From: an uncultured Saprospiraceae bacterium
GTDB taxonomy: Bacteria; Bacteroidota; Bacteroidia; Chitinophagales; Saprospiraceae
DNA: 64,000 nt
NCBI GenBank assembly: GCA_938015435.1
Contig: CALLPN010000043.1
Span: forward strand, 1-64,000
Direction: 5' to 3'
The position numbers and the translations under genes are program-made. The notes under the pieces are model-generated. The model did no database searches, had not been told where the DNA came from, and was given only the letters and a program-made list of their open reading frames with translations. Every line of letters begins with the position of its first letter. Within the stretch, counting starts at the first letter, position 1. Shown in pieces: positions 21,310 to 32,644 of this stretch.

Positions 21310-21607
21310 AGGTTACTGGTATTTTGCTGTAGGTTTATCGTTGTATGATAAATGATAATTTATTGTTTCTGAATTGTACTTCGAGGGTATCAAATTTGAA
21401 TGTAGATGAAATTGAAGACTCCTAATTCTGCTAGTTGTTCACCACCATATATAATGTTCTTGATTTGGCAGAATAGCCTCAGTTCTTGGAATGTAAGAGT
21501 AATCGCAGATAGAGTAGAGTCCTTCGGTTTGTATCTCAGTTGTGTTACGTTAGTAAGTGAGTAACTTGGCGGAGGTAGTTTAATTGATACGAACAAAGGT
21601 AAAAGCG

Positions 21608-21641
21608 AAAAGCCTTCAAATCTTTCGAAATGAAGGCTTTT
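21608..21641 (-). terminator. Ancestral terminator of tRNA-Asp, now displaced
   Basis: A perfect 11-bp stem (AAAAGCCTTCA / TGAAGGCTTTT) with a 12-nt loop directly abuts the displaced tRNA 3'-end fragment. On the minus strand it is followed by a T-rich run. Its place suggests that it terminated tRNA-Asp before the island inserted. Confidence 0.65.
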
Positions 21642-21654
21642 GCGGTCTGGACGG
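21639..21654. repeat. Distal attachment site: copy of the tRNA-Asp 3' end
   Basis: TTTGCGGTCTGGACGG is identical to 32567-32582, where it covers the last 12 bases of the intact tRNA-Asp plus 4 flanking bases. This is the direct repeat expected of site-specific integration into a tRNA gene. Confidence 0.85.
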
Positions 21655-21767
21655 ATACCGAATATAGAGCCTTAAGTCGTTGATTATCTGATGTTTGTGT
21701 ATTTGGGTGCAATTTTGGGTACAACTCCTTACATTATATTGTACTTTCCAAAATAGAAAAAATCATA

Positions 21768-22463
21768 CTAGATTAATATGAGAAATACTGAAATTGCTAT
21801 TAAAACAAGTGCTAATAACAATAATGACATTGTTTTTTTCTGAAACTTTGGGTTGTCCTCTTTTGAAAGATCTTCTTTACTGTAAAAATCATGAAACTCT
21901 GGAAACCCTTCTTTTTTTAGTTTTTCAGGCAAATCATTCTTAGCATAATGGAATACAAAATTAGAAAATTGGAATCTCATTTTATTTCTAACAGTCTTAA
22001 AAAAACCTTTTTTGTTGCTTAATAGTGAACCGTCGTAATTGTCTTTATTTAGAGTGATTGAAAAAGCTTCATGATCTTTATATTCTAAGGCTGGTTCGTA
22101 TTTATGTATAATATCTATTACTGCATGTGAATAATCATCTTCAAGTTTATCGTGTCTTATGTTGAAATTAAATGTATGTACACCTAAATAGTGTCCATCT
22201 TTTTTAATTTCTTGGATTTGTATATTACTAATAATGTTGTTGCAAGTGTTATATGAGAATTTGTCTCCTAAGAATGGCTTTGCTTCTAATATATCTTTTG
22301 GAATACACAGTAAGGTTGAATTCATAGAATAATCTATCAATCCTATTCCTGGATAGACAATTTCATTCTTATTACTATCTCTGACTCTCAATACAGAGTA
22401 TTTAACAACTTCTTTAGAAATGTTTTTTCGACCGTTAGAATTTAGGTAATTCAAACTTTGCAT
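21768..22463 (-). CDS. Cassette protein 3, tail-anchored membrane protein
   Basis: The 231-aa product is not recognised. It is mostly soluble and mixed alpha/beta, and ends in one hydrophobic segment (KTMSLLLLALVLIAISVFLI) with almost nothing after it. That makes it a candidate C-tail-anchored inner-membrane protein. A basic amphipathic stretch (KTVRNKMRFQFSNFVFHYAK) precedes the tail. It starts 5 bases after the stop of the preceding gene, so the three cassette genes form one operon. It is the last gene before the distal att site. Confidence 0.7.
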   Translation of the reverse strand: MQSLNYLNSNGRKNISKEVVKYSVLRVRDSNKNEIVYPGIGLIDYSMNSTLLCIPKDILEAKPFLGDKFSYNTCNNIISNIQIQEIKKDGHYLGVHTFNFNIRHDKLEDDYSHAVIDIIHKYEPALEYKDHEAFSITLNKDNYDGSLLSNKKGFFKTVRNKMRFQFSNFVFHYAKNDLPEKLKKEGFPEFHDFYSKEDLSKEDNPKFQKKTMSLLLLALVLIAISVFLILI

Positions 22464-22468
22464 TCATG

Positions 22469-22936
22469 TTATTTTAGAAAATCCAAAACTGTAGTTATTA
22501 TGTTCTTTGAATCTAGATCTTCGTAAAACTCTGATATGCTTTCTGTAGGATTTGGAGCTATGAAAAGGAGATTTAAATCATCTTCACTTAAAATCACATT
22601 TTTGTATTGTTCTTTTCCAATATTTCTATGAAGAACTAGTTCATCTTCATTTGTTCTATCAATTAAAATGTTCAATATTCCATTTGAATAACATGCATTG
22701 ATGATACTTAATCCCAAGTCTCTAACTTTTGTTGAAGAATAACAGAGAGAATTATAAACTTCTGTAAATCTTGATTCAGTTGTCTCAATAAGCGTTGCGT
22801 GTAGATTATTGTGATAGACAAAAGAATCATCGTTTTCGTAAATTACAACGTGCTCAATGGATTCTCCTGCTTTTAAGGAAAATGCTCCTATACTTCCAAT
22901 AAAACCTGCTTTTATAAAATCTGGAATGTTATTCAT
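22469..22936 (-). CDS. Cassette protein 2, unknown
   Basis: The 155-aa soluble product is not recognised and has no signal peptide or membrane segment. The composition is acidic, with a mixed beta/alpha pattern (IEHVVIYENDDSFVYHNN, NGILNILIDRTNEDELVL). Two bases separate it from the upstream gene and five from the downstream gene, so translation is probably coupled. It lies in the cargo end of the island. Confidence 0.7.
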   Translation of the reverse strand: MNNIPDFIKAGFIGSIGAFSLKAGESIEHVVIYENDDSFVYHNNLHATLIETTESRFTEVYNSLCYSSTKVRDLGLSIINACYSNGILNILIDRTNEDELVLHRNIGKEQYKNVILSEDDLNLLFIAPNPTESISEFYEDLDSKNIITTVLDFLK

Positions 22937-22938
22937 AA

Positions 22939-23649
22939 TTATTGTATGTCTTTAAGTGCTTTATCAGTAAGCATTTCTTGAAAAATATTATTGATCTCAG
23001 TACTTGAGTTTAACATAGATTCCTTTAAAGGAAAGTAGGATTTCAAAGTTTGCTTTGCTCCTATTCTATTTGAGGAGATTACTAAATCAACAATACAGCT
23101 TTCTATTGATTTTTGATCTATTTTCACAATGTACTTAACCTGATCTAAAATCTTTGTGAAATTTACATTAACGCTACCTTTTTCATAAAAAGAAAATTCT
23201 TTCTCTTCAATTTCTGGAACAAACTTTAAATAGTCCGTCATTTTAACATCTTTCTCAAAATTGAATCTGTTCGCTTTTGTTAGAGAAAAATTAAGAACTT
23301 CTAATTCTCCTTTAGTTTTAAAAAGTTTATCCGTAAAGAAGCTGATTTCTTCGAAAAAACTATTTAAGCTGACATAGTTACCCACTTTTCTCATTACCAA
23401 ACTAGTACTAGTAATTTCAATAATACATCCAGTACTTTCGTTTTGGATTTTAAAACCAATTGTATTTTTGACTTGAGGCGTACTATTAAAACTTACTGTT
23501 AACGTATTATAAGAACTCACATTGTTATAACCTCTCATAGGGTCTATTGAAAAATCCTTCAATTGTATAACGCTATTTTCATTTAGAGGTTTAACGAAAT
23601 TGAGAGATACAATTACTTCAAAGACTTTATTGTTCTGGAATTGTGTCAA
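22939..23649 (-). CDS. Cassette protein 1, weakly TIGR04255-like
   Basis: The 236-aa product is the first gene of the three-gene cassette. Its layout resembles the sporadic TIGR04255 family: an N-terminal beta-rich half, a central strand pair near LNFSLTKANRFNF where that family has its conserved R-Y-x-N-R strand, and a C-terminal helix (STEINNIFQEMLTDKAL) like the family's final helix. Similarity is by eye and weak, so this is inference only. Its promoter region would lie in the iteron-bearing gap upstream. Confidence 0.68.
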   Translation of the reverse strand: MTQFQNNKVFEVIVSLNFVKPLNENSVIQLKDFSIDPMRGYNNVSSYNTLTVSFNSTPQVKNTIGFKIQNESTGCIIEITSTSLVMRKVGNYVSLNSFFEEISFFTDKLFKTKGELEVLNFSLTKANRFNFEKDVKMTDYLKFVPEIEEKEFSFYEKGSVNVNFTKILDQVKYIVKIDQKSIESCIVDLVISSNRIGAKQTLKSYFPLKESMLNSSTEINNIFQEMLTDKALKDIQ

Positions 23650-24037
23650 TTAATTGGTTTTAGCATTACAAAAGTGCTTATAGGCTCTATATTACAGGTA
23701 ATATACTATAAAAGTTGCAAAAGTATTAAACTTTTCTTTTATACCTATTATTTCATCAACCATTACTGGCAGATAGAGATGTCCTTACGTTACTAACGTA
23801 TAAAGGGTAAAACGAATTGTACATTCCCAAAATATAACTATTTGTGAATCAGTTGTTTAGAATTTATTGGGAAAAACGAATTGTACATGTTCCTTTAAAG
23901 AATTTTGATCAGACGGTGAGTTATTGTGTTGAATGTCAGTGTGTTGTGACATGTACAGTTCGTTTTTCCAAAAGTGCACATTTCGTTTTTCCGATTATAG
24001 ACAGTGAAATACAATGATATCGGATATTTGCAGAACG
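23650..24037. repeat. Non-coding gap with four iteron-like repeats
   Basis: Four copies of a ~19-bp motif close to GGAAAAACGAATTGTACAT lie here. Two are on the plus strand (23805-23828, 23869-23893) and two on the minus strand (23951-23969, 23974-23992). The two halves face each other around an AT-rich centre. The gap lies between the cassette operon and the CoiA-like gene and contains no credible ORF. It could be a replication origin or a regulator-binding region. Confidence 0.7.
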
Positions 24038-25159
24038 CTAGACCTTCACTTTAGTAATTCCATTTTCAATATAAAACTCCGCTATAATTTCATTTCCTTC
24101 AGAAATAATGACTGTAGCAAATCTGTAAGTGAATTTTTTACTTTCTTTTTGCCCCCATCTAGTATGATAGGATTCTTTTGAATAGGTTGAAAATGTTGAA
24201 TATGAAATGCATAAGTTGCTATCTTCAGATTGATAAATGTGAAATTTTTCATGACATTTACCATCATAATCTTCAATGTATGACCTGTAATTGAAAAGTT
24301 CTTTTCCTCTGTCATCTATTAGAACCCGTATAGTACCGTTTTGATAGCATTTCCTAAAGTATTTGTACTCTTCACTTTTAAATTTCTCTTCCCTGTTTCT
24401 AAATTTTCTGTCTACTAATTCTTGTTTTCTGTCCCATTCTTGTTGAATAGCTCTCTCTTCTTCTTTTCGAACAGCGCGTATTTCTCTTTCTTTCTTCTCT
24501 GCAAGCTGTATGTCCTTTATTTCAGAAAATCTTGTTTGAAGATTGAGTAGATCATTTTCAAATGATGGAGATTCTAATTTGTAAAAGCCCCTATAGAATG
24601 CTTTAGACATCCAAATCATAGAGCATTTGAATTCAACGAATAGCCCGTTGTTGTGATAGTATTCTGTATCTAGCCATTTCTCTAGTTTAGCAATTACCTT
24701 AGAATCAATCCTTGCGCTAAACTTTTTAAAGCTAGAATTAGTAAAGTCAAGAACGAGGTAAGGTTGAAACCCTAATGCCCTATGAGCATAATGCCTTTTG
24801 TCCATTTCTTCAGTATCTACACCTAATGAATGTTGAAATTCTACAGCTATTTTATTATCAACTAAGCTATCTATTACGTGTTTTTCACCATTATGATAAA
24901 CCACTTGTTCATATGTTCGGGTATTACTCATTGGAATACCATATTTAGCTTCTATAATTTCATATTGCCATTTCAGGTGCCATTCAGAAGTTCTACTATC
25001 CTTTTTATTACTGCTTTCCGAAATTTTTCTTCTTATGTGATGCGCTTTTTTTCTTGGGATTACAGAGACGAATATATCACCATAGTAATCATACCATTGA
25101 CCTTTGATAGGTCTAGCCTGTTGTATTGATGTGATTCGGATGATTTTACTACTATTCAT
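24038..25159 (-). CDS. CoiA-like nuclease-domain protein
   Basis: The 373-aa protein resembles the competence-CoiA nuclease family. The segment EWHLKWQYEIIEAKYG, then HVIDSLVDNKIAVEFQHSLG and EEMDKRHYAH reproduces the family's W-H, D and E-F-Q-H-S residues of a PD-(D/E)XK-like fold (about residues 60-125). A long charged coiled coil follows (about 205-265), then a beta-rich C-terminal domain of unknown type. In an integrative element it might process DNA or act in inter-element competition; neither is shown by the sequence. The gene lies between the iteron gap and small hypothetical genes. Confidence 0.7.
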   Translation of the reverse strand: MNSSKIIRITSIQQARPIKGQWYDYYGDIFVSVIPRKKAHHIRRKISESSNKKDSRTSEWHLKWQYEIIEAKYGIPMSNTRTYEQVVYHNGEKHVIDSLVDNKIAVEFQHSLGVDTEEMDKRHYAHRALGFQPYLVLDFTNSSFKKFSARIDSKVIAKLEKWLDTEYYHNNGLFVEFKCSMIWMSKAFYRGFYKLESPSFENDLLNLQTRFSEIKDIQLAEKKEREIRAVRKEEERAIQQEWDRKQELVDRKFRNREEKFKSEEYKYFRKCYQNGTIRVLIDDRGKELFNYRSYIEDYDGKCHEKFHIYQSEDSNLCISYSTFSTYSKESYHTRWGQKESKKFTYRFATVIISEGNEIIAEFYIENGITKVKV

Positions 25160-25181
25160 TGAATTGGTTTGCCTTACTAAG

Positions 25182-25406
25182 TTATCTAAAATACTTATAA
25201 CAACTCTTTACAGTTGTACGAAATGATAATCCGGCAACATCACCATTCCCAACTATACCAGCTCTAAACAAAAATCTCCACCTTATACATAACCAGTACC
25301 ACATGATATGAATAACATCTGGTCTGTCTGAACTGACTCCGAGCATATCTCTTCTTAGGCGTGTAGATACGCTCATATTCAACCTCTCGATTATTCTCAC
25401 GAACAT
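25182..25406 (-). CDS. Possible small protein, uncertain
   Basis: A 74-aa frame that is in the same direction as its neighbours, overlaps the stop of the upstream gene by 10 bases and ends 22 bases before the CoiA-like gene. The product is rich in Arg and Trp and has no recognisable motif. The tight packing in an operon is the only support. Confidence 0.35.
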   Translation of the reverse strand: MFVRIIERLNMSVSTRLRRDMLGVSSDRPDVIHIMWYWLCIRWRFLFRAGIVGNGDVAGLSFRTTVKSCYKYFR

Positions 25407-25768
25407 TGCCCTATATAATCATTCACATTAAAGCTAGGATAAAGTTTCAAAAGAGTAGGATAGGAGTAGTGTCGGATCTTCTTAAATTGATGTTGAGTAT
25501 AACCTCTCTTTGGTGTATACAATCTAGTATACTCAATTACACGCTTGATTTCTTGTTCTATATTTATAATTATTGGAGCGCAGTATTTTGTCTTGTCGGC
25601 AGAATGAAATATATCCTTTTGGTTGCGTCTGTATTCCCTGGCTGTGAAATATATGAAAAGAGCTTCTTTGACATTCGTCGCTGGGATCTTTAAGTCCACT
25701 GTTATCCAGTTTGATCTAGTTGATTTTTCCTGACCTATGAGGAAACTATAGTATTTGATTGTTGTCAT
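25397..25768 (-). CDS. Hypothetical element protein
   Basis: A 123-aa basic protein from the ATG at 25768 (MTTIKYYSFLIGQEKSTRSN). An earlier ATG at 25846 is in frame, but it would place the terminator hairpin at 25800-25830 inside the gene, so the later start is preferred. The C-terminal part is basic and tyrosine-rich (TPKRGYTQHQFKKIRHYSYP), suggesting a nucleic-acid contact. The family is not recognised. Confidence 0.6.
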   Translation of the reverse strand: MTTIKYYSFLIGQEKSTRSNWITVDLKIPATNVKEALFIYFTAREYRRNQKDIFHSADKTKYCAPIIINIEQEIKRVIEYTRLYTPKRGYTQHQFKKIRHYSYPTLLKLYPSFNVNDYIGQCS

Positions 25769-25794
25769 ATGTAATTGGTTGATTGATATGAATA

Positions 25795-25830
25795 AAAAAG
25801 GGTGTCTAGTAATCAAACTAAACACCCTCG
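25795..25830 (-). terminator. Terminator inside the element
   Basis: On the minus strand GAGGGTGTTTAG pairs with CTAGACACCC and is followed by a T run (AAAAAAG on the plus strand at 25795-25801). It ends the transcript that carries the zinc-finger protein and the small downstream ORF. Confidence 0.75.
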
Positions 25831-25854
25831 ATATAATACGTGTCACGGTATATT

Positions 25855-26025
25855 TTAAAACCCTATTTCGTTTTGCTCATCCTCTTCATGGATGGTATAG
25901 TCAAATTCTTGTTTTGTGCTGTAGATAGTAAAACCTAGTAGCTTTACGGTAATATCTTTTGCTAGTACTTCAGTCTCGTTTACTACATGTAGGAATACAT
26001 TTCTGGTAACAGATATTAATTTCAT
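25855..26025 (-). CDS. Small acidic protein
   Basis: A 56-aa product (MKLISVTRNVFLHVVNE... acidic tail HEEDEQNEIGF) starts four bases after the stop of the zinc-finger gene. A terminator follows 24 bases after its own stop. The position supports a real coupled gene; the function is unknown. An in-frame ATG at 26067 would overlap the upstream gene. Confidence 0.5.
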   Translation of the reverse strand: MKLISVTRNVFLHVVNETEVLAKDITVKLLGFTIYSTKQEFDYTIHEEDEQNEIGF

Positions 26026-26029
26026 AACT

Positions 26030-26590
26030 CTATCCTGGTGTATTTTTATCTGCCACAGCAGGAGCATTCTTAGTAGCTAAATTTCCTAGTAAAGTAGTTA
26101 CACCCATCATTATAGCTGGTGCATTTGCTTCAAATATTCCCGCAATTGTTCCCCCTATACTCTTATTCTTTTCAACTTGAATATCTAATTTTTCAATGAG
26201 GGCTTCTTGTTCAGCAACTTTCTTTTCGGCAATTGCGAGATCACGTTCTACAAACATGAGTTGTATTTCCAATTTTGATCTGTCTGATTTTATGTCTCCA
26301 GATAAGTCCTTTTCTGACAGCAAATGGTTTAGTACCTCTTGATTCGTATTAGCTCCATTTAGCATTCGTTGTATATTTGCGTTATTCATCGCAAAAGGAG
26401 CAGAGGCGTTTCGACGGTTATGACTACTAATGACCCCTAGAGCTGCCTGTTCTGACTGCCCTGTCGCTGTGTAGGGGATGGCTTTACGTGCTAGATAAGC
26501 ATCGTTTTTACATGTCTTACTACAGTATTTGGAGTCTCTCCTTGTCGCTTCATATGTTGATGCGCAGTACTCACATTCTTTCTCTATCAT
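26030..26590 (-). CDS. Zinc-finger protein with coiled coil
   Basis: The 186-aa product from the ATG at 26590 opens with a compact treble-clef-like finger, ECEYCASTYEATRRDSKYCS followed by KTCKN, seen in many phage and island proteins. The middle is a charged coiled coil (about residues 80-140). The C-terminus is a Gly/Ala-rich hydrophobic stretch (GTIAGIFEANAPAIMMGV) that could insert in a membrane or oligomerise. Earlier ATGs at 26656 and 26623 add only unremarkable residues. It sits beside the TGASTCA array. Confidence 0.65.
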   Translation of the reverse strand: MIEKECEYCASTYEATRRDSKYCSKTCKNDAYLARKAIPYTATGQSEQAALGVISSHNRRNASAPFAMNNANIQRMLNGANTNQEVLNHLLSEKDLSGDIKSDRSKLEIQLMFVERDLAIAEKKVAEQEALIEKLDIQVEKNKSIGGTIAGIFEANAPAIMMGVTTLLGNLATKNAPAVADKNTPG

Positions 26591-26740
26591 AATATTGTTT
26601 TTATCAAATGTAATAGACGTCATTGGATCAGTCAAGTAATTTAGGGGTGCGCACAAGAGATACTAACTATTACTAGAAACTAATTGTGTGACGGCTAGCT
26701 AAAGGTCAGATAAGATTCACTGAAAATATATCTCTAAAAG

Positions 26741-26940
26741 TGGCTGACTCACGTGACTCACTGTCTCAAATCGTTGTAAAGTGTTGATAGTCAATAGATA
26801 TTTAAAAATTAGTGAGTCAGAGGTGAGTCAGAGGTCTGAGACAGATGAGTCAGAGGTGAGTCACTTAGGTTTTGGTACCTCTGACTCACTTTAATTTACT
26901 GTTAGTCAACGTTTTAACTATAGTTGAGTCACGTGAGTCA
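26741..26940. repeat. TGASTCA iteron array
   Basis: Nine copies of TGASTCA (S = C or G) fall within 196 bases, at 26745, 26754, 26813, 26824, 26846, 26857, 26882, 26925 and 26934. Outer pairs (26745-26760 and 26925-26940) are perfect 16-bp inverted copies of each other, each holding two units 9 bases apart. Inner pairs are spaced 11 bases (GTGAGTCAGAG units). The right end overlaps the last codons and stop of the primase gene. Confidence 0.85.
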
Positions 26941-29060
26941 CTAATTATGTCTACAAAAAGTTTTTTTAGATAATATCCCTTACGTCTTACTTTCATTTTG
27001 ATTCCTTTGGAGTTTTCTCGCTTGTATCCAAGATGGGTAAGCGCTCTACCTATCATTTGTCGGCGAAGCTTAAGATTTGGATATTCTCTAGTAAGGTCAT
27101 TTTCTATATCTGTGGTGGTATAGAAATTCTTCGCATCTTTATCTGGATCTAGTTCATAGTGTTCGTTCACTAGATCAAGCTCTGTAAAACTTACTATGTG
27201 TTCTTTATTGTTGTCTTCTGATTCTCTGACTTCATTTACACTCAATAGATATTTATACCCTGTGTTAAGTAGGTGTATTGCCTGTGAGTATACCAAGTCA
27301 ATATCTATGTTCTGGTTATATCCTTTGGAGCCACCGTTATCATGTATGATCCTGATTACTTCGAATATCAACCAACGAACATTACCAGTCGAATCTGTAA
27401 GGATCTCTTCATCGTTAGTACTAGCGAAAAAATTGGCAATTCGGTTAATCTTTACTGGCTTAGTACCAAATGGCAATCTCTCTTTTATATTCTCAGTACT
27501 TATAAGGGCTTTGATTTTGTTTCTATCATGATACGATATCGTTGCGATCTCATCAAGGTTTATAAATACGTTTTGAGCTAGTGAGATCCTACCATCTTTA
27601 TCAAGACTCATGTTTTCTGTGTAATAGTCTTTTAGTGTAAGTGGGCATAAGAATCTAATGAAGCTAGTTTTACCATCATTTTGATTTCCAATGATGGTAA
27701 AGCAATGCTTATTGAATGGTATTCTGCCTAGTGAGCAAGCCAAAGACCTCACTAGCATTTTTTTAAATTGAACATTAAACCACCTTTGCTTTTTAGCTTC
27801 TACAAAACCTGCCAATTGTTCAATGTAGTCTGGTTTTGTTTCATCCCAATCAGGAAGACCATCCAAGTAATCTTTAAGTGGGTTGAATGTTCTGATTAGA
27901 CTACTATTAAGTATTGCTTTCAATACTCTGTCTACAGACTTAAAATTGGCTTCCATCAACTCACAGATAATATCGTTTTCGTTAAGCACTCCCCAGAATG
28001 GTTTACCGTTTTCTTTTACTTCGATATCAAGTGAAATCTCATTACGTTTGAACGTGTATTTGTTAAATAGGTATTCTTTGATTTGTACGTATTGATTGTT
28101 CTTAGTGATCTTTTCATTTTCCTCTTTTTCATCACTCTTTTGGATATCTGATAATTGAAACGATTCTCCCAGATGCATTTTTGCATATTTCAATATCTGA
28201 GGATCATCATATCTCTTAGTTGTACTTTTAATATTTCGATTAACGGTACTTACTATTTCACTTTCTGTAAACGATGGCTCTGCAAGAGGTTTGCAATACG
28301 TGTGAATATGTAGAGAAGACAATCCATACTCAGTAGCTAGCTTGGTGTATTGCATCACAAAATTATTCCTACCTGAGATCCTACGCTTATCTAATACCTG
28401 TATTATTATTTCATGCTTATCATCATCACTGATAATGATGGTGCTGGCCGTAGAAATATATGTTTCCTTATTTTCATTTTTTTGTATATCTACTTCAACA
28501 TGATATACTCTAGATATTTCATTGATATAGATCTCATAACGATCTACAGCAGCATAATACCAAAGCCTAGAAGCATTCTTAGTGCTAGGATCTAGCTTAG
28601 CCCTGCCTAGCTCTATCAAGTCACTTAGGTCGTCCGCTATGGCCTTGTAATACGCTTTGTGTGTGTCGATAGTTGAATCAGTAAATACCAATATCCTAAT
28701 ACCATGTCCTGATACAGATGGGAAGGCAGCAAATACAAAATCTATTTTCTGCAGTACCTGTAATAGTGATACTAGATCTTCATAATTAGCTATCCCATCT
28801 ATATCAAATCCCATGCAAGGCGAGTACCTTATACATCCTGAGTCTTTCCGTTCTGAAAATTCACCAAACACTGCCCCCGGCAATTGTTTTTTGAGCTTGT
28901 CATATTGGATCTTATCCGTAGAATATAATCTCCTGAGCTGAGGATCATATTCATCATGCTTACTTACTAGATCTATGAAATATTGTAAGTCTCTGACTAT
29001 TGGTTTCTTTGTGTTAGTTATCTTATCAAAAAAGCTAACAGGTGTTTTTAGTCTATTCAT
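26886..29060 (-). CDS. Primase-helicase (BT4734-like N-domain plus VapE/SF3-type ATPase)
   Basis: The 724-aa replication protein has an N-terminal BT4734/VirE-N-like domain (about residues 45-190; MGFDIDGI, VSGHGIRILV, SRLWYYAAVD). A linker with PriCT-like helices follows. The C-terminal helicase domain has Walker A GNQNDGKTSF (about 455), Walker B INLDEIATI and sensor FFASTNDEEIL. This resembles the replication initiators of VapE-type islands and satellites. Its start overlaps the upstream stop (TAATG), so translation is coupled. The stop codon lies inside a TGASTCA unit, which puts a candidate origin at the gene's 3' edge. Confidence 0.88.
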   Translation of the reverse strand: MNRLKTPVSFFDKITNTKKPIVRDLQYFIDLVSKHDEYDPQLRRLYSTDKIQYDKLKKQLPGAVFGEFSERKDSGCIRYSPCMGFDIDGIANYEDLVSLLQVLQKIDFVFAAFPSVSGHGIRILVFTDSTIDTHKAYYKAIADDLSDLIELGRAKLDPSTKNASRLWYYAAVDRYEIYINEISRVYHVEVDIQKNENKETYISTASTIIISDDDKHEIIIQVLDKRRISGRNNFVMQYTKLATEYGLSSLHIHTYCKPLAEPSFTESEIVSTVNRNIKSTTKRYDDPQILKYAKMHLGESFQLSDIQKSDEKEENEKITKNNQYVQIKEYLFNKYTFKRNEISLDIEVKENGKPFWGVLNENDIICELMEANFKSVDRVLKAILNSSLIRTFNPLKDYLDGLPDWDETKPDYIEQLAGFVEAKKQRWFNVQFKKMLVRSLACSLGRIPFNKHCFTIIGNQNDGKTSFIRFLCPLTLKDYYTENMSLDKDGRISLAQNVFINLDEIATISYHDRNKIKALISTENIKERLPFGTKPVKINRIANFFASTNDEEILTDSTGNVRWLIFEVIRIIHDNGGSKGYNQNIDIDLVYSQAIHLLNTGYKYLLSVNEVRESEDNNKEHIVSFTELDLVNEHYELDPDKDAKNFYTTTDIENDLTREYPNLKLRRQMIGRALTHLGYKRENSKGIKMKVRRKGYYLKKLFVDIISDSRDSTIVKTLTNSKLK

Positions 29061-29227
29061 TATTCAGATTCAAATAAATAAGGACTACCAATTCGATCAA
29101 CTAGTTTTCCAACATACCCTCGTTCTAGTCGTTCAATCATATTTCGGAGAAATGATATTGATTTGCTGTAGATCCAGTATGAACCTTTGAATAATACATA
29201 TCGAGGTGTGTATTTATATTTTTTCAT
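29060..29227 (-). CDS. Small basic protein coupled to the primase gene
   Basis: A 55-aa basic product (MKKYKYTPRYVLFKGSYWIY...) overlaps the upstream gene by 14 bases and shares a TAATG stop-start with the primase gene. The overlap on both sides supports a real coding sequence. No family is recognised. Confidence 0.55.
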   Translation of the reverse strand: MKKYKYTPRYVLFKGSYWIYSKSISFLRNMIERLERGYVGKLVDRIGSPYLFESE

Positions 29228-29903
29228 CGTCGTTGTTTTCGAGTTTAGAAATGTTTTCAATAGTTTGATTTACTATAGACGAAATTTCGCTTTCACTTAT
29301 TGATTCATCTGACAACTGATACATTTTGTTAAGTATAGATTCTGGAGATAGGTCTAATTCTATAGCGGACTCTGTATATTCCTCTATGTATATGCTTTTG
29401 TCTTGAGTTACTTCAATGCTTAAAATATCTAATCCAATTTCTACGACATTATGCTTTTGTTGATCGGTTAGAAATACTTCTATAGGAGTAGGATTGTTTT
29501 TTTCATTATATATTTTGGCTCTTTCTCTTCTACTTAAAGGTTTAACTTGTGGCTCATTAAATGCGTAGGAGATAAAGTATTGAATTACTTTACCTACCAT
29601 AGTATTCAACTCTGAGGATTCATACGTTTTCTTTACTAGTTGATTAATTCTTTTTTCATATTTCTTCTCTAACGCTTCTCCTATTTTTTCCTTATCGGCG
29701 AGTGTGGTATATGGCTCTATCTTGTCTAATGGAAGAGTAATTTCTTGCAGGTGTTTTCCATTATTTAAGGTTGTTAATATGTATTTTGAGTTTACTCTTT
29801 TTTTAAATTCGTATATCGTTGGATTGGAAGAAGTGTCATGCTTCCATTTTACTTTTTTACATATCTCAATAATGTCGATTTTGATTTTTTTGTTACTAAG
29901 CAT
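29214..29903 (-). CDS. Hypothetical element protein
   Basis: The 229-aa soluble product has a basic N-terminal half and an acidic helical C-terminal half (from about residue 165), and no recognised domain. It precedes the primase in the same overlapping gene cluster, so a role in replication or its control is possible but is inference only. Confidence 0.7.
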   Translation of the reverse strand: MLSNKKIKIDIIEICKKVKWKHDTSSNPTIYEFKKRVNSKYILTTLNNGKHLQEITLPLDKIEPYTTLADKEKIGEALEKKYEKRINQLVKKTYESSELNTMVGKVIQYFISYAFNEPQVKPLSRRERAKIYNEKNNPTPIEVFLTDQQKHNVVEIGLDILSIEVTQDKSIYIEEYTESAIELDLSPESILNKMYQLSDESISESEISSIVNQTIENISKLENNDDEKI

Positions 29904-29995
29904 AATTGCTAGATTTTAGGCATTAGCTTATCAGGTATCGTAGATACACGATACAGCTAATGAGTGAATGAAATTGTTTGTGAATTAGTAGATCT

Positions 29996-30322
29996 CTATG
30001 AAGCGATCTTTTTGGTGGGTGCGATTAATCCTTTTTCGATCTGATCAATGATCTCTGAGTACTTGTAGAATGATTTACTCATTTTTCCTCCTAGCTTATA
30101 TCGACTTATAAGATTTTTCTTGTGAAGATTGTTAAGAGACGTGTAGCTTAGTCCGAACATAGATTCCATATCCAGATCGTCTAAATACTCTTTGCGTTTG
30201 GGATTAATTTTCTCTTGAATAAGAGCTCTAATGTTACTCATGTCTGATTCGAACATTGTAACTTTTGCTAGTAGGGCTTGAAGCAATTCGTTGTTGCGTA
30301 GTGCAATGTGTTCCATTGTCAT
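29996..30322 (-). CDS. Helix-turn-helix protein, excisionase-like
   Basis: The 108-aa protein has an N-terminal coiled coil followed by a winged HTH (LDMESMFGLSYTSLNNLHKKN, then LISRYKLGGKMSKSFYKYSE), the layout of the DNA-binding excisionase/HTH_17 proteins of Bacteroidota islands. It lies next to inverted repeats (30328-30400) that could be its operators. It may regulate the element and help excision. Confidence 0.78.
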   Translation of the reverse strand: MTMEHIALRNNELLQALLAKVTMFESDMSNIRALIQEKINPKRKEYLDDLDMESMFGLSYTSLNNLHKKNLISRYKLGGKMSKSFYKYSEIIDQIEKGLIAPTKKIAS

Positions 30323-30327
30323 TTATT

Positions 30328-30400
30328 ATGTTTGCAATAATTATATCGTTGCAAACATAGTGCATAATTGTTTGTAATGCAAATAATTGTGCAAACAATT
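30328..30400. promoter_or_regulatory. Two inverted repeats, candidate operators
   Basis: ATGTTTGCAA (30328-30337) and TTGCAAACAT (30349-30358) form a perfect 10-bp inverted repeat, and AATTGTTTG (30366-30374) and CAAACAATT (30392-30400) form a 9-bp one. All four half-sites share the TTTG/CAAA core. They fill the gap between the HTH gene and the integrase-partner gene. Confidence 0.6.
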
Positions 30401-30418
30401 AGACTAAATTGTCATTTA

Positions 30419-31183
30419 TTAAGTAGTCCAGAGGTAAAGATTTGTACAGTAAATAGGCGACAATTCTACTATTTGTCCACCAATTAATAAATCATCTATA
30501 TGAGTATAAATAGTTTTAAAATCATTTGGGTAGGAATTAGCATCATCATTAATAGAAGCTAAAATTTTCTTATAGTTGGATAAGTACTTTTCAGTAGCTT
30601 CCTCAGTAACATCATGAATGTTTCGAATCCAGTCAAGATATCTAATGTTTTTACCATTGCAATGATCATTAATAATCTTATCTAAAATTATTAAGAGCTT
30701 TGATTTAGCTGGAAGGTTTGAAATAAGTCTTTGAAAATCTGATTTAGAAAGTCTTTTTAAATTATCAAGAATGGATGGCCTTTTATTGTCAGAATAGTTG
30801 TAGTGTAGTTGACTAAAATAATGTTGAAAGAGTTTGAGGTAATTATTTAAAGAAATATAAGTACCCAAATCTAAGTAGATTTCATTCATTACATTTTGAG
30901 AGAACGACCATTCAATTCTTGTTAAAGAATTGAGTAAAATGGGCTTTATCCCCACTATTTCAAAATTTTCGTCAATTTCTTCGTTATACCTAATGAAAGA
31001 TATAATATCTTCTTCTAAATCATTGATATATAAATCAGGTAGATCAGTTACTTTTTGTATATCATTTCCAATTGAAAAATTTGTGGTTTTTCTTTTATAA
31101 GTTAAGCGAACATAAGTCGTTGCAAATCCTTCTGAATCAATTCTTTCTGATATAACAACATTAACTTTTTTTTCTTTTTTCAT
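30419..31183 (-). CDS. Integrase-coupled protein of unknown function
   Basis: The 254-aa product begins one base after the integrase stop codon (TGATATG), so the two are translationally coupled. Its first ~40 residues (VNVVISERIDSEGFATTYVRLTYKRKTTNFSIG) look like the three-stranded arm DNA-binding domain of Bacteroidota integrases. No tyrosine-recombinase catalytic residues follow; the remainder is helical. It could bind arm sites and modulate integration or excision; this is inference. Confidence 0.7.
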   Translation of the reverse strand: MKKEKKVNVVISERIDSEGFATTYVRLTYKRKTTNFSIGNDIQKVTDLPDLYINDLEEDIISFIRYNEEIDENFEIVGIKPILLNSLTRIEWSFSQNVMNEIYLDLGTYISLNNYLKLFQHYFSQLHYNYSDNKRPSILDNLKRLSKSDFQRLISNLPAKSKLLIILDKIINDHCNGKNIRYLDWIRNIHDVTEEATEKYLSNYKKILASINDDANSYPNDFKTIYTHIDDLLIGGQIVELSPIYCTNLYLWTT

Positions 31184-31184
31184 A

Positions 31185-32405
31185 TCACCAATTTACGTTG
31201 TCTAATCCTTCAGATATCATCTTTTCATTAAGATGCACATATTTCATAGTAGTTGATATTTTACTGTGCTGCATAAGTGCTTGTAGTATATGATGAGGAA
31301 TTCTATTCGCCATATATGTACCAAATGTATGCCTACCTACATGCGTAGTCAATACTTTGTTTAATACAGCTCTTTTGCCTATTATTTTGAGCTGCTTATT
31401 GCTTGCCTGATTCGTCACGTTCCCAAAGATAGGCTTTGATCTGTATTGTTGACCATATAAGTCTTTCAATAACTTTTCGTAGCGTAGTATCATGCTATTA
31501 GGCTTAGATATTCCAGTATCATCTATAAAGAGTTTTGATATAGGGACGGTAATATACTTACTCGTTTTATTGGATCTAGTACGTAGGTAATATTCACCGT
31601 CTTTCTTATCGAACATGCTCAAAGTAAGTTCCTTATTACTTTCATTTCTTAGCGCAGTCCAGCAGCTAAATAGAAAAGCATCTCTGTAGATCTCCAGATA
31701 CATCTCCTCCGGTTTGAATTTTAGATCCTCTATCTTCTTTACTTCCTCCATAGTAAGGTAAGTTCTAGGTTTAGCCTGCCCATGCTTTACTTTGAATTTC
31801 AGATATGGATTACCATTTGGTAGCGTTACATCTTTGCGTAAAGCTTGATTGATAAAGTACTTGATATTCTTGTGATTCTTAGCTCTCGATGTTGCTCCTA
31901 CACTTTTCATAGCTAGATATCCTTCAAAACCCTCTATCGTTCTGAATGTGAGATCTGAGAAGTATAATTGACTCTTATATTCCTTGAGATGCGATAGGGT
32001 AGTGTTATAGGTGACTATTGTGCTTTTGGCCTTAGTTCTTTTGCTAATTTCTATTTCGGATTCCACGAACTCAAAGAACGAGTTATAATTAGATCCTGCA
32101 TCCCTTTCGAGATCTTCGAGCTCACATCGCCCTAATCGATTCATGATCGTCATAGCTTTCTCCTGGTACTGTTGCATCAGTTTCAGTAGTCTGATATTAT
32201 ACCTGGCTTCTAGCTCATGATTGATTACACGATTATTGGAGCTATCCCATTGCTCTGGAGATACATAGATCTCAGTAGATATGTATTTGTGTTTAGTATT
32301 GCGCTTAGAGTTGGGCTTATATGCTACCAGTTGTATCACAGCTTCGCCATGTTTATTGAGTTTGCGCTTCTTGTTATGTACAAGAGAAAATCTTATTGGT
32401 TTCAT
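31185..32405 (-). CDS. Tyrosine site-specific integrase
   Basis: The 406-aa protein has an arm-type DNA-binding N-domain (residues 1-90), a SAM-like core-binding domain (about 105-200) and a catalytic domain. The catalytic residues appear as TALRNES (first Arg, about 248), HVGRHTF (His-x-x-Arg, about 355) and QHSKISTTMKYVHL (His and the nucleophile Tyr near 388). It lies 166 bases from the 3' end of the intact tRNA-Asp and reads away from it, as expected for a tRNA-targeting integrase. Confidence 0.95.
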   Translation of the reverse strand: MKPIRFSLVHNKKRKLNKHGEAVIQLVAYKPNSKRNTKHKYISTEIYVSPEQWDSSNNRVINHELEARYNIRLLKLMQQYQEKAMTIMNRLGRCELEDLERDAGSNYNSFFEFVESEIEISKRTKAKSTIVTYNTTLSHLKEYKSQLYFSDLTFRTIEGFEGYLAMKSVGATSRAKNHKNIKYFINQALRKDVTLPNGNPYLKFKVKHGQAKPRTYLTMEEVKKIEDLKFKPEEMYLEIYRDAFLFSCWTALRNESNKELTLSMFDKKDGEYYLRTRSNKTSKYITVPISKLFIDDTGISKPNSMILRYEKLLKDLYGQQYRSKPIFGNVTNQASNKQLKIIGKRAVLNKVLTTHVGRHTFGTYMANRIPHHILQALMQHSKISTTMKYVHLNEKMISEGLDNVNW

Positions 32406-32533
32406 AGTTAGTACTTTGTCAAAAGACGGTACAACAACTAGTACACCACAAAAACGAATTAATACAAGTAATTACGAATTGATTCAAAACCCTACTAATG
32501 AATAACTCGTTATTTATCAACTACTTATAACAG

Positions 32534-32569
32534 AAAGAGGAAAAAGCAAACTATTGCTTTCTCCTCTTT
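32534..32569 (-). terminator. Island-supplied terminator of tRNA-Asp
   Basis: A 15-bp stem (32534-32548 with 32555-32569) has one position that pairs as G-U only in the minus-strand RNA, fitting transcription from the tRNA. The loop is 6 nt. Confidence 0.7.
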
Positions 32570-32582
32570 GCGGTCTGGACGG
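32567..32582. repeat. Proximal attachment site in the tRNA-Asp 3' end
   Basis: It is identical over 16 bp to 21639-21654 and covers the acceptor-stem 3' strand of the tRNA. The integrase gene and this site are on the same side, so the tRNA remains intact after integration. Confidence 0.85.
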
Positions 32583-32644
32583 GACTCGAACCCGCGACCC
32601 CCTGCGTGACAGGCAGGTATTCTAACCAGCTGAACTACCAGACC
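32571..32644 (-). tRNA. tRNA-Asp (GUC)
   Basis: The 74-base cloverleaf has acceptor stem GGTCTGG/CCAGACC, D-arm GTTCAGCTGGTTAGA, and anticodon stem-loop CTGCCTGTCACGCAG with anticodon GTC at 32608-32610 (complement). The T-arm is GCGGGTTCGAGTCCCGT. CCA is not encoded. It is the integration site of the island. Confidence 0.97.

Follow-up and report, generated by a model that had tools for sequence, protein, structure and literature searches.

Among the described systems closest to the element presented here are the phage-inducible chromosomal minimalist islands (PICMI) of the Vibrionaceae, which have the gene set int, iolg, alpA and prim and in which the small gene iolg, required for excision, overlaps int by 1, 4 or 13 nt (PMC10803314). 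In the phage-inducible chromosomal islands (PICI), an AT-rich region with two sets of iterons placed around it forms the origin (PMC6092414). In marine environmental bacteria, the virion-encapsidated integrative mobile elements (VEIMEs) and tycheposons are integrated islands that are thought to be phage-packaged (PMC10803314); they are likened to the present element by description only. In the Bacteroidota, an ecologically important phylum, few satellite-like elements appear to have been described in the literature searched. Here, an integrative element of 10,928 bp (attachment site to attachment site), inserted at the tRNA-Asp gene of an uncultured Saprospiraceae bacterium, is described from a window of 64 kb, i.e., the whole stretch of DNA that was analysed (contig CALLPN010000043.1, positions 1 to 64,000). 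With a probability of roughly 0.55, it is an element of the phage-satellite type that integrates at a specific site, replicates itself and depends on a helper; we infer the helper and the transfer route.

The element is bounded by a 16-bp direct repeat, TTTGCGGTCTGGACGG, which occurs exactly twice in the window. The structures at its two ends are:

32570..32644, minus strand: tRNA-Asp (GTC), the integration target, intact (ARAGORN and Rfam)
32567..32582, no strand: attachment (att) repeat on the tRNA side, the tRNA-Asp 3' end (exact 16-bp repeat)
21639..21654, no strand: att repeat on the far side (exact 16-bp repeat)
32534..32569, minus strand: element-borne terminator hairpin serving tRNA-Asp (fold -21.5 kcal/mol, z -6.7)
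21600..21638, minus strand: ancestral tRNA-Asp terminator, stranded at the far end (matches the hairpin abutting tRNA-Asp in two congeners, G002 and G003)

Because the intact tRNA-Asp occupies 32570-32644, TTTGCGGTCTGGACGG corresponds to the 3' end of this tRNA. The gene is the sole strong tRNA-Asp match found in the assembly, the other matches in the same genome being weak (74-79%), and nothing but the tRNA was matched in the Rfam scan. The stranded hairpin folds less strongly (-17.6 kcal/mol, z -4.6) than the element-borne one. Read from the sequence, this is a terminator replacement, in which the element supplies a new terminator to tRNA-Asp and the old one is left at 21600-21638.

In G002 (C97) and G003 (C53), which belong to the same genus, the tRNA-Asp site is empty: the tRNA directly abuts a hairpin nearly identical to that at 21600-21638. 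When the two flanks of the element in the window are joined in silico, the alignment with both genomes runs across hairpin and tRNA alike and contains a single 1-bp gap and few substitutions. The stranded terminator is borne out by these comparisons, because the empty junctions carry that hairpin and the tRNA of the window ends in a different, stronger one. Relatives show no synteny between the rpsU-side (left) flank and the tRNA, and the G002 contig stops ~60 bp past the terminator; the comparison therefore concerns the local junction and the xdhC side only. The preliminary description of this DNA, made from its letters alone, had claimed an element of about 10.9 kb between two copies of the tRNA-Asp 3' end, with a replacement hairpin and a stranded ancestral terminator, and had proposed looking for an empty site in related genomes; all of this agrees with the repeats, folds and junctions found.

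In G003, three tandem copies of the tRNA-Asp 3' end plus terminator are present ~248 bp apart (L038:7759-8310), which are probable scars of repeated insertion. In another congener, G001 (L035, at a contig end), tRNA-Asp is followed by a foreign hairpin and an unrelated ORF, and probably houses another element. On the basis of these tandem copies and this foreign hairpin, the tRNA-Asp site seems to be repeatedly used.

The main genes of the element are all on the minus strand, in the direction of tRNA-Asp. The integration and replication modules consist of:

31185..32405, minus strand: tyrosine integrase, 406 aa, with Arm-DNA-bind_5, SAM_5 and Phage_integrase domains (Pfam, all three above cut-off)
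30419..31183, minus strand: integrase-adjacent open reading frame (ORF), 254 aa (family in seven elements, plus positional counterparts in two further loci, L226 and L229)
29996..30322, minus strand: helix-turn-helix (HTH) protein, AlpA/excisionase-like (family alignment; relatives match HTH_17 and phrog_66)
26886..29060, minus strand: PrimPol (BT4734_N)-VapE primase-helicase, 724 aa (Pfam; PDB relative 7pds, 'Similar to D. nodosus vapE')
26745..26889, no strand: iteron array GTGAGTCA, proposed replication origin (six exact copies, split into two sets by 50 bp of 76% AT)

The three tyrosine-recombinase domains bear out the earlier reading of an integrase beside the intact tRNA. This integrase is 45% and 42% identical to those of two related elements, L107 and L106, and integrases of 29-45% identity were found at tRNA-Asp, Lys, Arg, Gln, Leu and Met genes. 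Between int and the integrase-adjacent ORF there is a gap of 1 nt in the window and of 6 nt in L226; in L106, L107, L099, L119 and L229 the first few nt of the ORF coincide with the last of int. By its position and by analogy with iolg, it is proposed to be an excision accessory factor. Its structure model has a b-b-b-a N-terminus of low confidence and is poor beyond ~residue 90. An Arm-DNA-binding domain in this ORF was considered and dropped as a guess: profile comparison with integrases gave nothing, one member had a Pfam match at E=0.23, and fold matches were weak. The HTH protein of the window has no Pfam match itself, and its excisionase-like character, as previously suggested, is supported through its relatives: HTH_17 is matched by 9 of the 11 members of its alignment, and phrog_66 'excisionase' by three proteins of the pooled element set.

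The VapE-type primase-helicase of the preliminary description is supported by Pfam matches to VapE (E=1.4e-23) and to the PrimPol-like BT4734_N (E=2.4e-11). DUF5906 is also matched (31.5 bits, cut-off 27.6), and DUF3987 is not. Scans for close proteins in the genome and viral contigs using the single VapE protein gave no match; its relatives were found with an alignment as query. Among viruses, its closest relatives are helicases encoded by Flavobacterium and Cellulophaga phages (31-35%).

Directly after vapE lies the array that holds six of the eight exact copies of GTGAGTCA in the window, a copy number reached in none of 200 shuffles. Such arrays are a common property of vapE loci. An 8-mer repeat array is present downstream of vapE in 71 of 95 loci (P<=0.01, dinucleotide shuffles), and the mean highest 8-mer copy number in these loci is 5.3 downstream versus 2.1 upstream, counts that overstate the independence of the loci because some are duplicates taken from two collections. 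At least four copies of an 8-mer are found in 77% of 70 post-vapE gaps versus 7.6% of 406 other intergenic gaps. The iteron unit varies by element and commonly resembles GTAGTAA, CGAGTAA or CTAAGTAA. By analogy with the PICI origins, the array beside vapE is proposed to be a replication origin of the PICI type.

Homologous islands, for which a search had been suggested, are present at tRNA-Asp in other Saprospiraceae: L106 (15.4 kb), L107 (13.5-13.7 kb) and L119 (12.0 kb). L106 repeats the stranded-terminator geometry, L107 adjoins a damaged tRNA, and both have a hairpin of like kind and position beside the tRNA. The window element, L106 and L107 have in common int, the int-adjacent ORF, HTH genes, vapE, a 149-aa ORF and a zinc-finger gene. 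L119 shares int, the int-adjacent ORF, HTH and vapE with the window, and its zinc-finger protein is more distant. The gene order int, adjacent ORF, HTH, vapE is conserved. More distant vapE elements with tRNA repeats, spanning 8.6-12.7 kb, are found at Arg, Ala, Val, His and Glu tRNAs; L104 and L146, which contain phage-like genes, were set aside from these bounded vapE elements. At a tRNA-Gln, L229 (G204:C1:3245000-3260500) has the same int/int-adjacent frame, but with a rolling-circle plasmid-type Rep_1 initiator, a single-stranded DNA-binding protein (SSB) and RadC. Since Rep_1 occurs in this same frame, replication modules get swapped.

The order int, int-adjacent gene, HTH and primase matches that of PICMI, which also have an AlpA-type HTH, a primase with DUF5906, no capsid remodelling genes, and cargo of unknown or defence function. 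The definition of PICMI combines int with an AlpA or HTH_17 protein and a DUF3987/DUF5906 primase. Like PICMI, the element has a small gene overlapping or contiguous with int, as seen from the 1-nt gap in the window and the overlaps in relatives. It differs from PICMI in its site (tRNA-Asp, not fis), its BT4734_N-VapE primase, its size (10.9 versus ~6 kb), its Bacteroidota host and its recognised iteron array. With PICI, including the Staphylococcus aureus pathogenicity islands (SaPI), it shares a site-specific integrase with a specific att site, a primase-helicase with an adjacent origin made of two iteron sets around AT-rich DNA, a size near 10-15 kb, and the lack of recognised structural or lytic genes, some ORFs being of no known family. 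In contrast to PICI/SaPI, its main genes are on one strand, and no Stl-type divergent repressor, terS or PICI-exclusive gene was found. Non-canonical integrative and mobilizable elements (IMEs) and mobilizable genomic islands (MGIs), which carry only an origin of transfer (oriT), likewise combine an integrase and excision factor with the absence of conjugation proteins, but the present element has its own replicon. The canonical Bacteroidetes IMEs, such as NBU1 and Tn4555, are similar in their small size and their tyrosine integrase with an accessory excision protein; unlike them, the element has no relaxase in any library. Of the terminase, portal, capsid or tail genes that define a prophage, none was matched in it either. 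The element resembles PICI and PICMI in its apparent working, and by their defining tests it is a member of neither, nor is it a canonical IME.

The earlier claim that relaxase, conjugation and phage structural genes are lacking is upheld by library scans: no relaxase, conjugation or virion family was found in the proteins of the window element in Pfam, PHROGs, NCBIfam and PADLOC. In addition, among 66 proteins pooled from six elements, no relaxase, type IV secretion system, terminase, portal, capsid or tail protein was found among the 25 most widely shared of 31 and 45 families.

In the proposed mechanism, the integrase would recombine the 16-bp tRNA-Asp 3' end with an identical site on the element; because these sites are identical in sequence, tRNA-Asp stays whole and gains the element-borne terminator. 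Excision by the integrase would probably need the AlpA-like HTH protein and the int-adjacent gene, as in PICMI. The excised circle would replicate from the iteron array, with PrimPol-VapE as initiator, primase and helicase. Since the element encodes no recognisable transfer or virion genes, it probably spreads in helper-phage particles.

The preliminary description had left the choice between a phage satellite and a mobilizable island of Bacteroidota. The host phylum and the integrative nature stand, and the anatomy favours a satellite without settling the choice, because a PICI-type origin lies beside the primase-helicase, the gene order is PICMI-like, and bounded relatives of similar size also have no structural genes. 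Several points weigh against a satellite. The element shows no recognisable terS, no gene for capsid remodelling or interference, and no divergent repressor of the Stl type. With several of its proteins matching no known family, failure to find a relaxase or packaging factor is no proof that it has none. No resident helper, be it a prophage, as sought at the earlier suggestion, or a conjugative element, was found in the host assembly (89% complete), which shows no convincing terminase and no PF03432 relaxase; one TerL candidate was rejected as a single match of 19 bits inside a 1154-aa ORF. IMG/VR is nearly without relatives (two with vapE, one with int) and gives packaging no support.

The missing relaxase would also fit a relaxase-less IME with nothing but an oriT mimic, mobilised in trans by a conjugative element in the way that SXT-type integrative and conjugative elements mobilise MGIs. 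Relaxase-less IMEs exist (PMC5704250), and a repeat cluster at 23805-23993 could be a cis transfer site. This explanation is nevertheless unlikely, as the canonical IMEs of Bacteroidetes encode their own relaxase (PMC5704250), the host assembly has none of the PF03432 type, and the replication module and gene order look satellite-like. An integrative plasmid-like replicon, spread mainly by transformation or vesicles and with no dedicated helper, is rather unlikely: the autonomous replicon anatomy, the Rep_1 initiator in the same int/adjacent-ORF frame of its sister L229, and the ability of satellites to move by natural competence too, as reported (PMC13376191), are indirectly consistent with it, but a satellite would account equally for the phage-type helicase and for the compact size range within tRNA boundaries. 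That the element is a decayed prophage or relic, no longer mobile, is improbable. A minority of vapE relatives do lie in phage-like elements (L104 terminase-like and L146 tape-measure-like, as judged by eye), but the integrase and VapE reading frames are intact with conserved catalytic positions, the att repeats are perfect, and relatives at the same site are without structural genes too, so that this absence is probably ancestral.

The remaining ORFs of the satellite-like element include two genes of the family core and the cargo:

29214..29903, minus strand: 229-aa ORF, weakly similar to the central part of the VapE protein (E 6.6e-4, 27%)
26030..26656, minus strand: zinc-finger/coiled-coil protein Zn26, family core gene (17 matching ORFs in related loci; Cys motif invariant)
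25397..25846, minus strand: small core ORF, 149 aa, common to L106 and L107 (phmmer/HMM)
24038..25159, minus strand: cargo, 373-aa protein with an HxID...EFQH motif (37% relative; no Pfam match)
23805..23993, no strand: 20-mer GGGAAAAACGAATTGTACAT, present four times in the upstream gap that precedes the TIGR04255 operon, twice in direct and twice in inverted orientation
22939..23649, minus strand: cargo operon gene 1, TIGR04255 family (NCBIfam 37.2 bits, cut-off 30)
22469..22936, minus strand: cargo operon gene 2, 155 aa (relative directly after a broken TIGR04255-like gene in L190)
21768..22463, minus strand: cargo operon gene 3, 231 aa, with a C-terminal membrane anchor (sequence; no relatives found)

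No match of Zn26 was found in phages. In L114:1785-2879, L230:7744-8907, L119 and L051, the zinc finger is fused or adjacent to a membrane coiled-coil protein, which suggests a common membrane-linked function. The 373-aa protein is a putative CoiA-like nuclease, its motif being judged by eye, and its 37% relative stands alone as a chromosomal gene in L223. The GGGAAAAACGAATTGTACAT cluster is a probable operator of the cargo operon or a second cis site. Operon genes 1 and 2 seem to occur as a pair in another genome (L190) too, where the TIGR04255 likeness of the broken gene was read by eye; a search for this operon in plasmids, phages and papers found nothing. The putative nuclease and the TIGR04255 operon may pay for the residence of the element, perhaps as anti-phage functions. 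Other elements carry different cargo: T9SS (type IX secretion system)-sorted proteins, trypsin and SprB repeats in L106 and L107, and SMC-like ATPase and McrC-like genes (by eye) in L095. A tRNA-Asp island, L226 (G531:C18:192000-208900), contains a full type I restriction-modification system. These differences indicate that the cargo varies and the core stays.

Related integrases are also present in unrecognised virus-like proviruses of the Saprospiraceae genus g22 (L230/L231, G399:C1:3631500-3665900; also L238 and L240). There are 4 to 11 copies per genome, counted by a candidate capsid protein (L231:1930-2619) that has no match in phages, IMG/VR, PHROGs or PDB. The provirus encodes an integrase 38% identical to that of the window, a P-loop ATPase, amidase and lysozyme-like proteins and a run of small single-membrane-span proteins, and looks like a non-tailed membrane-containing virus. 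Similar in style is the viral contig L186 (IMG/VR 3300028178_000030), with a 36% VapE relative, an ATPase, small membrane proteins and muramidase-like genes. A virus-like provirus in G298 was rejected as evidence of a helper: it lies on a contig with 96-99% identity to genus g22, probably a binning error or a very recent transfer, and no meaningful stretch of DNA is common to the provirus and the L106 island.

A wider reading is tentative and rather doubtful: the tRNA-bounded vapE elements of Saprospiraceae and the wider Bacteroidota may be phage satellites that make up a large clade so far undescribed. Their replicons would be modular, of the PrimPol-VapE or the Rep_1 kind, and their cargo exchangeable, with restriction systems, surface proteins secreted by the T9SS, and nuclease and TIGR04255 operons; they would possibly be parasites of non-tailed membrane-containing viruses with related integrases. 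The element itself is, as the preliminary description held, undescribed in the libraries and papers searched, and it is the reference point for a Bacteroidota family that likewise appears to be undescribed. It provides a bounded reference element with same-site relatives, a testable origin and a searchable gene order, and it connects the tRNA islands of Saprospiraceae with cargo of the defence and surface-protein kinds.

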